Both the position numbers and the translations under genes were made by a program. The notes beneath the pieces are model-generated. The model saw only the letters and a program-made list of their open reading frames with translations. It was not told the DNA's origin and did not search any database. From Methanobacteriota archaeon (GTDB lineage: Archaea; Thermoplasmatota; Thermoplasmata; Methanomassiliicoccales; UBA472), in the NCBI GenBank assembly GCA_021372315.1, contig JAJFUT010000017.1, positions 1 through 32,463 on the forward strand: a DNA stretch of 32,463 nucleotides, given 5' to 3'. Shown here in pieces: positions 26,900 to 32,373 of this stretch (its first letter is position 1; each line of letters opens with the position of its first letter).

Positions 26900-27115
26900 T
26901 CAGAGCGGAGATATGCTGACGACGTTGTTGCCACGGAGGATGACCACTCCGAGGCGCCTGCTCTGTTCCGCGGTGCGCTCCTCGGTCTCCTCTATGACCA
27001 TGTTCATGTACTCATCGTAACCGGTGAGCTTACCCTCTAGGACCCTGGTGTCCTTCAGTAATATGGATATACGCTTGTTGATGGACTTCTCGAGCAGAGC
27101 GAGCGGCATTACCAT
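26900..27115 (-). CDS. Sm-like archaeal protein (Lsm)
   Basis: A 71-residue single-domain protein with Sm1 (KRISILLKDTRVLEGKLTGYDEYMNMVIE) and Sm2 (LGVVILRGNNVVSISP) motifs. Archaeal Lsm proteins form heptameric or hexameric rings that bind U-rich RNA. I chose the ATG at 27115, because the TATA-like box at 27148-27157 places the transcript start downstream of the earlier in-frame ATG at 27136. An ATG at 27109 is also possible. The R-G-N-x-V core of Sm2 is intact. It leads the pair lsm-nucleotidyltransferase. Confidence 0.9.
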   Translation of the reverse strand: MVMPLALLEKSINKRISILLKDTRVLEGKLTGYDEYMNMVIEETEERTAEQSRRLGVVILRGNNVVSISPL

Positions 27116-27147: not shown

Positions 27148-27157
27148 GATTTAAACC
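27148..27157 (-). promoter_or_regulatory. TATA-like box of lsm
   Basis: Read on the minus strand, GGTTTAAATC is centred about 37 bases before the ATG at 27115. It lies between the end of the small ORF and lsm, so lsm can be transcribed separately from the condensin operon. Confidence 0.5.
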
Positions 27158-27178: not shown

Positions 27179-27364
27179 TCAGTGCTTGATCGCAAGGAAG
27201 GGTTGGCCCATCCAGTAGCTTGCGGTGGACGCGGGGCCCCCCCATTCGTACGAAAGCTCGGTGATGTTGACGCAGTAACCGGTCCCGTGCTGCCTGTTGC
27301 CTTCAGGGACGGTCACCGGAATCCGCACGATGCCGGGGCTTGGGACCATATTGTCCGGGATCAC
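27179..27364 (-). CDS. Small ORF, fourth gene of the SMC-ScpA-ScpB operon, unknown function
   Basis: A 61-residue ORF whose GTG start overlaps the scpB stop (GTGA at 27361-27364), the same coupled arrangement as the genes before it. By my count about four fifths of its codons end in G or C, like the genes around it and unlike random sequence. The product contains PVTVPEGNRQHGTGYCVN and ends in WMGQPFLAIKH; it has one Cys, no signal peptide or transmembrane segment, and several aromatic and Gly/Pro residues suggesting a compact beta-rich fold. I do not recognise a family. The frame is also open a little further upstream (GTG at 27388), inside scpB. A conserved accessory of the condensin complex is a guess from position. 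Confidence 0.6.
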   Translation of the reverse strand: MIPDNMVPSPGIVRIPVTVPEGNRQHGTGYCVNITELSYEWGGPASTASYWMGQPFLAIKH

Positions 27365-27858
27365 TGCTTTGATTGGGATTCCAGCCACCTCTTGATCTCT
27401 TCCTTCTTGGTGCTCCCGATGCCGAACTTCTCGCTGAACTTCGTCGTGGTGGTGAGAAGCCAGGTCTGTCCCTTCTTCTTCCCGGTCACGAGGCCGGCCT
27501 GCCTGAGCGCTCTGACGTCATCATAGATGTCGGAGCCCATCAGCCTCGCGAGCTCGCTCTGAAGTATGGGCTGGTTGTAGGCGATGATCGCCGCCGTCCT
27601 CAGAACGCGGTCGGGAAGGTCCTTCTCGGCGAACTGCATCGAATAGCTGGCCGCCTCCTTCCTCAGCTGCATCGAATAGTTGAGCCCCGTCCTCGCGATC
27701 TGGATCGCGGACGCGCGATCGTCGTACGTGGCGATGAGCTTCTTCAGGGCCTTCCTGACTTCGGTCTGGGACATCCCGGTCGCGTCGCAGATCTCCGACG
27801 CCTTCAGCGGCCTTCCGGCCGAGAAGAGCACTGCCTCGACTGCGACCTCAGGCTCCAC
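27361..27858 (-). CDS. scpB: Segregation and condensation protein ScpB
   Basis: A 165-residue protein with two winged-helix domains (about 4-80 and 85-150). It dimerises and binds the central part of the kleisin ScpA in the SMC complex that compacts and segregates chromosomes. The family features VEAVLFSAGRPLKASEI at the start and RVLRTAAIIAYNQPILQSEL in the middle are clear. The start overlaps the scpA end by 11 bases and the stop overlaps the small ORF, so all four genes of the operon are coupled. The tail is short and charged. Confidence 0.92.
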   Translation of the reverse strand: MEPEVAVEAVLFSAGRPLKASEICDATGMSQTEVRKALKKLIATYDDRASAIQIARTGLNYSMQLRKEAASYSMQFAEKDLPDRVLRTAAIIAYNQPILQSELARLMGSDIYDDVRALRQAGLVTGKKKGQTWLLTTTTKFSEKFGIGSTKKEEIKRWLESQSKQ

Positions 27859-28777
27859 TTCTCATCACCGCTCTCGTCTCATCCGCGGGGACCGCCGCAA
27901 TGGCCTTGTCCTCCATCGTCCCGATGTCCCATGGCAACTTGATCTCCAGGAATATCTGACCGTAGGGTACGTCGTCCTGCCAGAGCGATATCTTGCCGGA
28001 CCGGTTGAGGAAAAGCAGGGAAACGAACACCGTCACGGCATCCTCCTTCCCGCCCTCGACCAGGTCTTCGAACTGGATCGGCCCGTTGCCGCATCTCATG
28101 ATCCGTCCCCAGGTGACCTCGACGTCCTTCTCCAGGTCCTCGAGGTGCGCCTTGTCGTCGAACTTGACGACCTTTGACCTGAGGGCCTCCTTGACCCTCT
28201 GCCTCTGCAGCTGGACCTCGACGTCCAGCTTAGCCTCCTCGAACGCATCGAGGAGCTCGACGAGCGATACCGGCCTCGAGCTGTGGTGCCTGACGGCCTC
28301 CGTCAGCTCCACCCCCGCCGGGACCTTCGTGTCGATGCGGGCCAGGGCGGGGTCCTCGACGAACTCGTCCAGCATGTCCATGTCGAGGTCGGAGAACATG
28401 AGCTCGCAAGGCTCATGCGTGTCGTGAAGGGTAAGTACTTCCTGGGACTGCATCCTGAAGATGCTCCAGGCCATGAACATGAGCCTTCCGGCGACTATGA
28501 AGTTGATCTCGTCCCCGTGCATCTTCTTGGCGTAGAGGCGGGAGAACTCCATCAGGTTGACGTCCCATGGGTCGAAGTTGTTCGAAAGCACGAGCTCGAA
28601 TACCAGCTGGATCGCCCTGTCGACGGGGTCCTGCGGGGCCGAGCGGTCCCCCTGCTCCGCCTGCTTGAGCAGCTCCATGTACCTTTCGATCTTCTCACTG
28701 CGGTCCCCCTCGTCGATTATAGCCCTGTGGAACAGCAGATGGCCCAACACCGCCTCCGAGCTCGTGACTTCGCTCAT
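27848..28777 (-). CDS. scpA: Kleisin ScpA
   Basis: A 309-residue kleisin that closes the SMC dimer ring. The N-terminal helical domain (about 50-125, with DPVDRAIQLVFELVLSNNFDPWDVNL) should contact the SMC neck. The C-terminal winged helix (about 235-295) should contact the SMC head cap. The central region about 135-225 is acidic and helical and would hold ScpB. The ATG overlaps the smc stop by 4 bases (ATGA). The N-terminal 45 residues, before the conserved DP-x-D segment, are longer than in many bacterial ScpA proteins. Confidence 0.92.
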   Translation of the reverse strand: MSEVTSSEAVLGHLLFHRAIIDEGDRSEKIERYMELLKQAEQGDRSAPQDPVDRAIQLVFELVLSNNFDPWDVNLMEFSRLYAKKMHGDEINFIVAGRLMFMAWSIFRMQSQEVLTLHDTHEPCELMFSDLDMDMLDEFVEDPALARIDTKVPAGVELTEAVRHHSSRPVSLVELLDAFEEAKLDVEVQLQRQRVKEALRSKVVKFDDKAHLEDLEKDVEVTWGRIMRCGNGPIQFEDLVEGGKEDAVTVFVSLLFLNRSGKISLWQDDVPYGQIFLEIKLPWDIGTMEDKAIAAVPADETRAVMRSGA

Positions 28778-31700
28778 GCATTTCCCCCCTTTTCCTCTGG
28801 TATCTTCAATTCCTCATGAAGGTCCTTGATGTCGCCGACGTCCGGCTTGACTATGATGTTGCTGATGCCTCCCTCGGGCTTCGTCACCCCGATGATGTGG
28901 TCCGCCTTGTTGAGCGTGACCTTCCGTAGGGAGATCATGACGAACTGCGCCGTCGACGCGCACTTCCTGACGCGCTGCGCCACGCTGTCCGCGTTCACGG
29001 CGTCAAGGAACATGTCGACCTCGTCAAGCAGATAGAACGGCGATGGCTGCCACTCCTGCATGGCGAATATGAACGATAGCGCCGCGAGCGATTTCTCGCC
29101 GCCGCTCAGCGCCTCGAGCCTGAGCACCTTCCCGTTCCTCGGCCTGCACTTCATGACCAGGCCGCCCTCGAACGGCTTGTCCGGGACCTCGAGGTAAAGC
29201 TCGGCCTCCCCTCCCTGGGACAGCTCCGCATATACCTTCTTGAAGCTCTCGTTGACGCCATCGAACACCTTCAGGAGCGCGACCTTCTTCTTGTCGTTCA
29301 GTTCCGTGGTGAGCTTGATCAGGTCCTTGCGCTGGTCCTCCAGCCTCTTGACCTCGTTCTTCATCTCGATGTGCCTGGCGCCCTTCTGCTCGTAGTCCTC
29401 GATGGAGCGCAGGTTCACGGCCCCCATGGAGGCGAGCGTGGACTCGCAGCGGTTCATCTCGGACCTGATGTCCTCCATCGACGGCAGCGGATATGTCACC
29501 GGCACCTGGATCTGTTCGATCTCGACCTCGCACTCCTTGATGCGCTCCAATGCCGCGGCCTGCTTCGTCGTGAGCGTGATGATGAAGTCCTGGCTCGTGT
29601 CGACCCTGGTCTGCACCTTGTCCCGGTCCGACTCGTACTGGGTCCTGTCCTTGAACAGGCCCTCCTTCTTCGCCCTGAGCTCGTTCATCTCGCGGCCCAT
29701 GGCCTCTTCGATCCGCTTGAGGCCGTTGAGCTCGATGCGCAGCTTGGCCTCCTTGGCCTTGGCCTCGTCCCCATCGGCCTTCAGCTTGATGCCCTTCTGC
29801 CTCGTCTCGAGCTCGAACTCGTCGAACTCCTGAAGGTGCTTCCTGATGAGCTCGACCTGCGTCTGCATGGTCGTCCTTTCGGAGAGCAGCTGGGCCGCCT
29901 CGGCGGTCAGTTCGACGACCTCGGACTGCAGAGCGCGCAGCTTGGTCGACATGTCCTTCGGGGCCAGCTCCAATATCCTCTTCTTGCCGGCGTCCCTCTG
30001 CTCGCGGATGACCGCGACCTTGGAATCGAGGGATCCGATCTCCCTCCCCAGTTTATCGATGGCAGCCTTGAGCTCGCCGAGGTCCTTCGTCTTCTGGACG
30101 ATATCGTCCTTGGCCCTCGTGAGCTTGGCCTTCGCCTCCTTGAGAGATGCTTCCAGACCTGTGATCTTGATCTCGTTGCCGCTTCCGGAGCCGTTCAGCT
30201 CGCGCATGCGCGCCTCGATCTGCTGGAGCTCCAGGCGCAGAGCCTTCACCTGCACCGCGACCTTCTCCGAGTGCTCCGTCGACCTTCTGAGCTCCTCGGC
30301 GACCTCCTCGATCTTGCCCTTCTTGCTCTGGCCGAACCTCGGGACGTTCGTGTCGACCGTCCCTCCGACCATGGCGCCCGATGCTTCGATCAGCTCGCCG
30401 CTCGCGGTGACCAGGCGCACGCCGCCCATCATCCTCCTTGCCTGGTCCAGGGTGTCCACGACGACCGTGTCGCCGAAGACGTACCAGAACGCTGCGCGAT
30501 ACTGGTCGTCGAAATCTATGAGATCGATCGCGTACCCGACGGCGTCCTTGACGACGATCTGCGCTTTGCCGCGCGGTTTGCCGTCCAGCATCTTGCTGAG
30601 CGGAAGGAACGTCGCCCTTCCGAGGCTGTTCCTCTTGAGATACTGTATCGAGGCCGAGGCGACCTCGTCGTCGTCAACGATGATCGACTGCATTCTCGCG
30701 CCGGCGGCGACGTTCAGTGCGACCTCATACTGGGGATCGACCTTGGCCAGCTCCGCGACGGTGCCGTGAATGCCCTTTATCTCGCCCCTGTCCCTTGCCT
30801 CGAGCAAGGAACGGACGGCGCGGTTGTAGCCCTTGGCGACGCTCTCCGCCGCCTCCTTCTCCGCGGTGAGATGGTTGTATTCGCGGGTCAGTGATTTGAT
30901 GGCGTTCTCCAGCTCCTCGAGCTGCGCCGAAAGCTTCGATTCCTGAGACCTTTTGGCGAAGAACTGCGCCTGAAGAGTGGTGACCTCGCCGGTCGACGAT
31001 TTCTCGTTCCTCTGGACCTCCTTGAGGCGCCATTCAGAGTCCTTGACCTGGAACTCGAGGTTGTCGCGGCTCTCCTCGAGCGAAGCAATGTCGGACGTCA
31101 GTCTGCCAGACCTGTCCTCCATGCGGTTCTTCTCGAGGAGCATCGAATGCGATCTCTCCTCGCCTTCCTTGACCTGAGCGTCCAGCTCTGTGACCTTCTT
31201 CTCCAGCGCCGAGATCTCGCCGTCGAACGAGGACATCCTCTCCTGAACCTGGGCCATCGTGGCCTTCTTTTCATCGAGGAGGCTCTGCTTCTCCACCCTG
31301 ACAGCCTCCGTCGTCTTGATCTTGTCCTCGAGGCCTTTGACCTCCTGTAGCAGCTTGGACCTCTCCTCCTTACGGCCTTTCAAAGCCTCTAGGAGCTCCT
31401 TGAGGTCCTCCTCGCTCCTCTGCATGGTGTCGGTGGCCCGGGCGATCTCGATCTTGGCGGAGTCCATCCTCTCCTTCATCTGGCGGAACTCCTCGCCGCC
31501 CTTGTCGAGTATCTCCTTCTCCAGCTGCTCGATCTTGTGATCGGTCTCTGTGACCTTCTTTGCCAGCTCGAGCTTCTTCTGCTTGAGCCCTTCTATCTCT
31601 TTGTTGTAGGAGTCGATCTGGGTCCTAGTCGCGTTGACCTCGGTCTCGGCGACCTCCCTCTTCTTGTGCGCCAGACGGGACTTCGATAGCGCCAGACGGT

Positions 31701-32373
31701 CCCGGGTCTCCATGTACTTTATCGCCGCGGCCTTCTCTGACTCGAGCTGCTTCATATGCTTCTCGAGCTCGGCCATTATGATACCGAGGCGGTCCATGTT
31801 CTCCTCGGCCGTCTTGCGTTCGCCGTCCGCGCGGATGATGTCCTCATCGAACTTGCTGATGCCGGAGATATCGTCCAGAACACGCCTTCTCTCAAGGGGG
31901 GACATCTCGACTATTCGAGTGACATCACCCTGTTGGACGAGATTGTATCCGTCAGCGCTTATCCGGGCGGACGAAAGGAGATAATCGAACTCGGTGAGCG
32001 ACGACTTCCTGTCGTTGACGTAGAAATAGGAATTGTAACCGATCTCGCTCTCGGAGAGCTTGACATGCCTGGTCAGTCTGACGATGTCCGAATCGACCGG
32101 GATGATCCTGTCCTTGTTATCGAACACCAAGGACACCTTGCAATAGCTGGATGGCTGCTTGGAATTGCCGCCGTTGAAAATCAGGTCCGTGAGCTTGCCG
32201 GCCCGCAATGCCTTGGAGCTCTTGGGGCCCAGGACGAATAGTATAGCGTCAGAGATGTTGGATTTCCCTGATCCGTTCGGGCCTGTCACGGCCGTGAAGC
32301 CGTCCAACATAGGGATGGTCATCTTCTTTCCGAACGATTTGAAGTTCTCTACTTCGATCTGCTTTAGGTACAC
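28774..32373 (-). CDS. smc: Chromosome segregation ATPase SMC
   Basis: A full-length 1,199-residue SMC protein. The N-terminal head has Walker A GPNGSGKSN (31-39). Long coiled coils rich in Glu, Lys and Leu (about 170-510 and 690-1020) flank a hinge (about 530-680, beginning GIHGTVAEL at 534). The C-terminal head has the ABC signature LSGGEKSLAALSF (1089-1101) and Walker B FYLLDE with the catalytic E1118. It dimerises at the hinge and, with ScpA and ScpB, forms the condensin ring. The start is a GTG at 32373, preceded by an AGGGGGT ribosome-binding-like sequence. It is the first gene of smc-scpA-scpB-small ORF. Confidence 0.95.
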   Translation of the reverse strand: MYLKQIEVENFKSFGKKMTIPMLDGFTAVTGPNGSGKSNISDAILFVLGPKSSKALRAGKLTDLIFNGGNSKQPSSYCKVSLVFDNKDRIIPVDSDIVRLTRHVKLSESEIGYNSYFYVNDRKSSLTEFDYLLSSARISADGYNLVQQGDVTRIVEMSPLERRRVLDDISGISKFDEDIIRADGERKTAEENMDRLGIIMAELEKHMKQLESEKAAAIKYMETRDRLALSKSRLAHKKREVAETEVNATRTQIDSYNKEIEGLKQKKLELAKKVTETDHKIEQLEKEILDKGGEEFRQMKERMDSAKIEIARATDTMQRSEEDLKELLEALKGRKEERSKLLQEVKGLEDKIKTTEAVRVEKQSLLDEKKATMAQVQERMSSFDGEISALEKKVTELDAQVKEGEERSHSMLLEKNRMEDRSGRLTSDIASLEESRDNLEFQVKDSEWRLKEVQRNEKSSTGEVTTLQAQFFAKRSQESKLSAQLEELENAIKSLTREYNHLTAEKEAAESVAKGYNRAVRSLLEARDRGEIKGIHGTVAELAKVDPQYEVALNVAAGARMQSIIVDDDEVASASIQYLKRNSLGRATFLPLSKMLDGKPRGKAQIVVKDAVGYAIDLIDFDDQYRAAFWYVFGDTVVVDTLDQARRMMGGVRLVTASGELIEASGAMVGGTVDTNVPRFGQSKKGKIEEVAEELRRSTEHSEKVAVQVKALRLELQQIEARMRELNGSGSGNEIKITGLEASLKEAKAKLTRAKDDIVQKTKDLGELKAAIDKLGREIGSLDSKVAVIREQRDAGKKRILELAPKDMSTKLRALQSEVVELTAEAAQLLSERTTMQTQVELIRKHLQEFDEFELETRQKGIKLKADGDEAKAKEAKLRIELNGLKRIEEAMGREMNELRAKKEGLFKDRTQYESDRDKVQTRVDTSQDFIITLTTKQAAALERIKECEVEIEQIQVPVTYPLPSMEDIRSEMNRCESTLASMGAVNLRSIEDYEQKGARHIEMKNEVKRLEDQRKDLIKLTTELNDKKKVALLKVFDGVNESFKKVYAELSQGGEAELYLEVPDKPFEGGLVMKCRPRNGKVLRLEALSGGEKSLAALSFIFAMQEWQPSPFYLLDEVDMFLDAVNADSVAQRVRKCASTAQFVMISLRKVTLNKADHIIGVTKPEGGISNIIVKPDVGDIKDLHEELKIPEEKGGNA

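Follow-up and report, generated by a model that had tools for sequence, protein, structure and literature searches.

The window, meaning the whole stretch of DNA analysed (32,463 nucleotides), carries on its minus strand, in the order of transcription, smc, scpA, scpB, a small ORF, lsm and a nucleotidyl transferase gene. The gene smc (28774..32373, minus strand) matches PF02463 (SMC_N, E 1.3e-64) and the hinge model PF06470 (E 1.4e-37), scpA (27848..28777, minus strand) matches PF02616 (SMC_ScpA, E 2.3e-6) and scpB (27361..27858, minus strand) matches PF04079 (SMC_ScpB, E 7.1e-34). An earlier note on this DNA had described these three genes as overlapping one another by 4 and 11 bases, followed by an ORF whose GTG overlaps the scpB stop (GTGA) and which stays open for 61 residues down to 27179. 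The coordinates bear out the overlaps, and the ORF is present as described, with its GTG at 27364 (27179..27364, minus strand). The same frame is also open from a GTG further upstream, at 27388, and from there would encode 69 residues ending at a TGA at 27181-27179 (27179..27388, minus strand). In the 69-residue reading the overlaps form a series of 4 bases for smc/scpA, 11 for scpA/scpB and 28 for scpB/small gene, and the GC content at the three codon positions of its 69 codons is 0.57, 0.49 and 0.77.

The stop of the small ORF precedes a separate TATA-like box for lsm, the next gene, as had also been remarked from the sequence: a TTTAAA at 27155-27150 (27150..27155, minus strand), which begins 40 bases before the lsm ATG. 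This ATG, at 27115, opens a conserved start of the protein (MVMPLALLEK; lsm, 26900..27115, minus strand), and the longer reading of lsm from 27136 matches PF01423 (LSM, E 1.4e-22). This longest reading begins very close to the TTTAAA box, just 14 positions beyond its end; the ATG at 27115, common to relatives and 40 bases after the box start, is the more plausible start of lsm. In all 15 carriers of the small ORF a TTTAWA lies past the ORF stop, 38-42 bases ahead of the lsm ATG; in these carriers the scpB stop and lsm are 238 to 332 bases apart (15/15 read). Among genomes that do not carry the ORF, the box is found 38-41 bases before the lsm ATG in the eight where both could be located by pattern, and the promoter-like box of lsm thus seems to be older than the ORF.

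The length of the ORF is not in itself above chance. In a dinucleotide Markov simulation of the window alone, 31% of trials had a frame still open beyond the scpB stop (chance about 0.31), and the same chance taken singly over 15 homologues ranged from 0.09 to 0.36; the significance of the ORF therefore comes from its relatives. With the 61-residue sequence as query, clear matches in 41 genomes (its own included) were found only in G001, G002 and G004, all of them adjoining scpB, and its own genome held no second copy at E 0.001. When 30 loci, one per genome, were read in the same frame beyond scpB, a related ORF was seen in 15. A profile built from 12 homologues recovered 15 of the 22 genomes of one Methanomassiliicoccales family, distributed over four genera, with 16 full-length places at E-values of 2e-29 to 8e-22. 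Homologues were found to adjoin scpB without exception, the coordinates showing all 16 full-length places to overlap the scpB match at its end, and broken frames were sought in the same places without a single internal stop coming to light (0 in 16/16). One of the carriers, G021, for which 4% contamination is estimated, contains two scpB copies (C38 and C67), each with its own small ORF, as well as one short weak match beside its two full-length places, which may mean that two strains were assembled together.

In profile searches of 147 genomes of the order and 400 drawn from the class, full-length matches were confined to members of this family. Outside it, only short matches, covering 17 to 44 of the 69 profile positions, were obtained in 12 of the 147 order genomes (best E 0.0094), and weak matches in 4 of the 400 class genomes (best E 0.003), where at most 15 candidates were scored per genome. 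A search for scpA, scpB or lsm near 13 weak-match loci (7 from the search with the 61 residues, 1 from the profile search of the family and 5 from that of the order) returned only one chance-level ScpA match (E 0.17). The weak matches at these 13 loci are treated as chance.

Seven genomes of the family gave no match. Five of them could be read at scpB (G006, G007, G008, G011 and G014), while the remaining two are not judgeable, scpB lying at a contig end in G010 and G013 showing no scpB. In G008 and G011, scpB and lsm are separated by 127-128 bases with no such ORF between them. In G006 and G007 (loci L012 and L008), which likewise have no ORF, lsm was not found by pattern within the roughly 1.5 kb read past scpB. 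In a tree of ScpA and ScpB from 30 genomes, the 15 carriers make up one side of one branch (support 93/94) and the five family non-carriers one side of another (100/100). The simplest account is a single gain of the small gene in one branch of the family; if the gene goes back to the origin of the family, the pattern could also stem from a single loss in the sister group. Restricted as it is, among the genomes searched, to part of one family, the small protein is not a general SMC-kleisin component.

Selection on the frame was estimated from codon alignments, the first 11 columns of which, largely overlapping scpB, were dropped in all dN/dS runs. In a first gap-free set of four sequences (L014, L017, L020 and L023), omega in frame was 0.245, with a 2dlnL of 30.1 over a model with omega 1 at the best-fitting of seven kappa values, and in a second gap-free set of three (L006, L013 and L015) it was 0.304 (2dlnL 13.4); both sets come from genus g2. 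The shifted sense frames, which contain stops, gave omega values of 1.67 and 2.39 in the first set and of 3.06 and 1.94 in the second. The sign of coding that the earlier note had proposed to look for, a dN/dS below 1, is therefore found, at 0.25 and 0.30 in frame against 1.67 to 3.06 in the shifted frames. A 14-row codon model, which omits L016 as near-identical to L014, reached an lnL of -2385.1 compared with -2448.3 when omega was fixed at 1; the gap-free sets are preferred to this run because it uses a protein-guided alignment with long branches. Among the 25 closest pairs, omega was 0.20 to 0.78 in 24 and 0 in the near-identical pair. The loci of the window's own genus (L002, L003 and L004) differ in length, and for this genus there are pairwise estimates only, namely 0.27 with L003 and 0.60 with L004.

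One antisense frame also showed a low omega (0.30, 2dlnL 16.7). Taken with the open-frame chance of 0.31 for the single sequence, this is what could be said for a non-coding origin of the frame, either as a chance ORF in GC-rich DNA or as the shadow of an antisense gene. However, the antisense frame in question is interrupted by stops in 2 of 58 codon columns, its signal is weaker than that of the sense frame (16.7 against 30.1), and the two other antisense frames gave 1.30 and 2.09; antisense coding was rejected on these grounds. A chance ORF is contradicted by the omega tests, in which the shifted sense frames contain stops and reach 1.67 to 3.06, and a non-coding origin of either kind is hardly credible. 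Judged from these sequence comparisons, the small ORF is almost certainly a real protein-coding gene under selection. Its product is constrained but evolves much faster than its neighbours, unlike a core subunit: in the same four genomes the omega of ScpB is 0.041, compared with about 0.25 for the small protein, and the identities of the small protein and ScpB are 59% and 94% in one comparison and 48% and 80% in another.

The homologues also bear on where translation would begin. The earlier note had placed the start at the GTG of the GTGA (27364), a start that is not common to the homologues, L003, for example, having no start codon at this position. The upstream GTG at 27388, by contrast, has an equivalent in register in all 15 homologues read, and six of these (L003, L007, L011, L017, L020 and L023) have it as their sole ATG, GTG or TTG ahead of the conserved Arg-Ile-Pro core described below. 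Position 27364 is thus probably not the start of the small gene. The GTG at 27388 falls within the conserved last codons of scpB, so that its own conservation may be due to scpB, and we infer the exact start at 27388 with this in mind. In the nine carriers measured, the overlap of scpB and the small gene is 28 or 31 bases. The overlap could also be read in another way, with the frame forming a C-terminal extension of ScpB reached by -1 frameshifting and not a separate protein, and the offset of the ORF from the scpB frame is indeed identical in all 15 carriers read. However, inspection by eye of the last 36 bases of the carriers' scpB genes disclosed no common slippery heptamer, and a usable GTG is available in every one of the 15, which makes such an extension very improbable.

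The predicted proteins are 66-74 residues long. Five residues of the 69-residue reading are invariant in 12 aligned rows, namely R22, I23, P24, V40 and K68, and the Arg-Ile-Pro core (residues 22-24, codons at 27317..27325, minus strand, counted from the 27388 start) is unchanged in 12/12 and in 9/9 rows. Across homologues this core begins at residue 19-22. Searches of Pfam, NCBIfam, PHROGs, PADLOC and PDB sequences gave no family match better than E 0.035, a value obtained by one of 12 members against an NCBIfam sigma-factor model. Remote kinship with ScpB was rejected (hhalign probability 0.1%), and no homology to a kleisin, a kite or another Smc-ScpAB subunit was detected with Pfam or by hhalign to ScpB. 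Single-chain AlphaFold predictions from two 9-row alignments, one for the window protein and one for a distant homologue, yielded no confident fold on either (mean pLDDT 47.0 and 46.2, pTM 0.15 and 0.19). The low confidence of the models may be due to the shallow alignments, or the protein may acquire its fold only when bound.

The invariant core recalls a different kind of function, in which the act of translation and not the product matters, with the peptide tuning the operon or the downstream lsm. Arg-Ile-Pro is followed by a further proline in several homologues, which is reminiscent of RAPP-like arrest motifs; RAPP-like arrest peptides are described in bacteria (PMC12992588). The small ORF shares with them a conserved Arg-x-Pro, in several homologues Arg-x-Pro-Pro. 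In the small protein, however, the motif lies mid-chain, whereas the bacterial arrest motif is placed near the C-terminus (PMC12992588); the second proline varies, conservation extends to the remainder of the chain, including the C-terminal half (V40 and K68), and lsm, the gene that follows, is preceded by a promoter-like, TATA-like box of its own past the ORF. Nor is there a sign of structured RNA. The consensus fold has an energy of only -3.2 kcal/mol with a covariation term of 0, although 8 of its 12 predicted pairs show at least one double change, and between 26800 and 27900 no Rfam model matched at its gathering score, the sole match being sR1 at 27846-27873 with 16.7 bits against 45. A structured RNA element was rejected on this basis, and a regulatory peptide appears improbable.

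A selected protein of its own is left as the main reading, and its position suggests what it may do. We propose, with a probability somewhat short of one half (roughly 0.45), that the gene encodes a young and fast-evolving accessory protein or regulator of Smc-ScpAB, of about 69 residues, which is made together with ScpB from the smc-scpA-scpB message. The gene would most simply have arisen once, in the gap that separates scpB from lsm, within a single branch of the Methanomassiliicoccales family, and its product would be translated as a separate protein of about 69 residues from a message presumably shared with smc, scpA and scpB. Translation from a GTG inside the last scpB codons would tie its synthesis to that of ScpB by translational coupling, and the product may then serve Smc-ScpAB as an accessory partner or regulator, for instance by touching ScpB as it is made. 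Serial overlaps and an lsm box that lies only past the ORF stop (15/15 carriers) suggest that the genes from smc to the ORF share one message and that the dose of the small protein follows that of ScpB, and this in turn favours an accessory or regulator acting on ScpB or on Smc-ScpAB. Genetic linkage to smc, scpA and scpB is present. However, gene order is static within the clade, so that lying beside scpB throughout is a weak argument for a common function, and it is from position only that we infer the condensin role of the putative partner.

Nearly as likely as a condensin accessory is a passenger that the operon simply carries along. In this case the protein would be genuine and under selection but unrelated to condensin, and its young gene would have been born in the scpB-lsm spacer. 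Such an origin would fit carriers confined to one branch, fast evolution, the lack of a match to a known family and a neighbourhood too static for linkage to be informative. It fits less well with the gene never being found away from scpB at any of its full-length places, and with a common start inside scpB, through which its dose would be linked to that of ScpB.

For the reading as a Smc-ScpAB accessory, what is reported on the archaeal proteins is of direct relevance. According to PMC7055376, smc, scpA and scpB are adjacent in six of six Methanomassiliicoccales, ScpA proteins that lack the ScpB-binding segment prevail in archaea, and the archaeal ScpA/ScpB pairs tested did not associate, so that even the canonical complex is unproved here. 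The prevalence of such ScpA proteins, as described there, leaves room for a lineage-specific helper without showing one. In a bolder form of the proposal, which we regard as unlikely, the small protein would be a fourth Smc-ScpAB component peculiar to this clade: newly evolved, it would bind ScpB during synthesis of the latter and fit it to an archaeal ScpA without the bacterial ScpB-binding segment; if true, a de novo gene would have become part of the chromosome-condensation machine. Since it is disputed whether archaeal ScpB cooperates with ScpA at all (PMC7055376), a small partner dedicated to them would be informative and open to direct test.

Whichever function it has, a small gene under selection joins a chromosome-organisation operon that ranks among the most conserved in prokaryotes, and its appearance and persistence at the end of this operon can be traced within a single archaeal family. 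Searches of the open-licence PMC library brought up no title or abstract opening that concerned a small fourth gene in this operon. Relative to the Smc-ScpAB condensin operon, the small gene takes fourth place in the chain of overlaps, after smc, scpA and scpB; its product differs from the subunits of this system in having neither similarity to ScpB nor a Pfam or NCBIfam family, and in occurring, among the genomes searched, in only part of one archaeal family. The gene also resembles young overprinted genes, of which laoB in E. coli is reportedly an example of a small gene that arose by overprinting or de novo: it is short and taxonomically restricted, starts inside an older gene and is under measurable purifying selection. 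In contrast to laoB-type genes, it lies on the same strand as the older gene, is found in 15 genomes of four genera and overlaps its host by only 28-31 bases, so that most of the small gene sits in what is spacer elsewhere.
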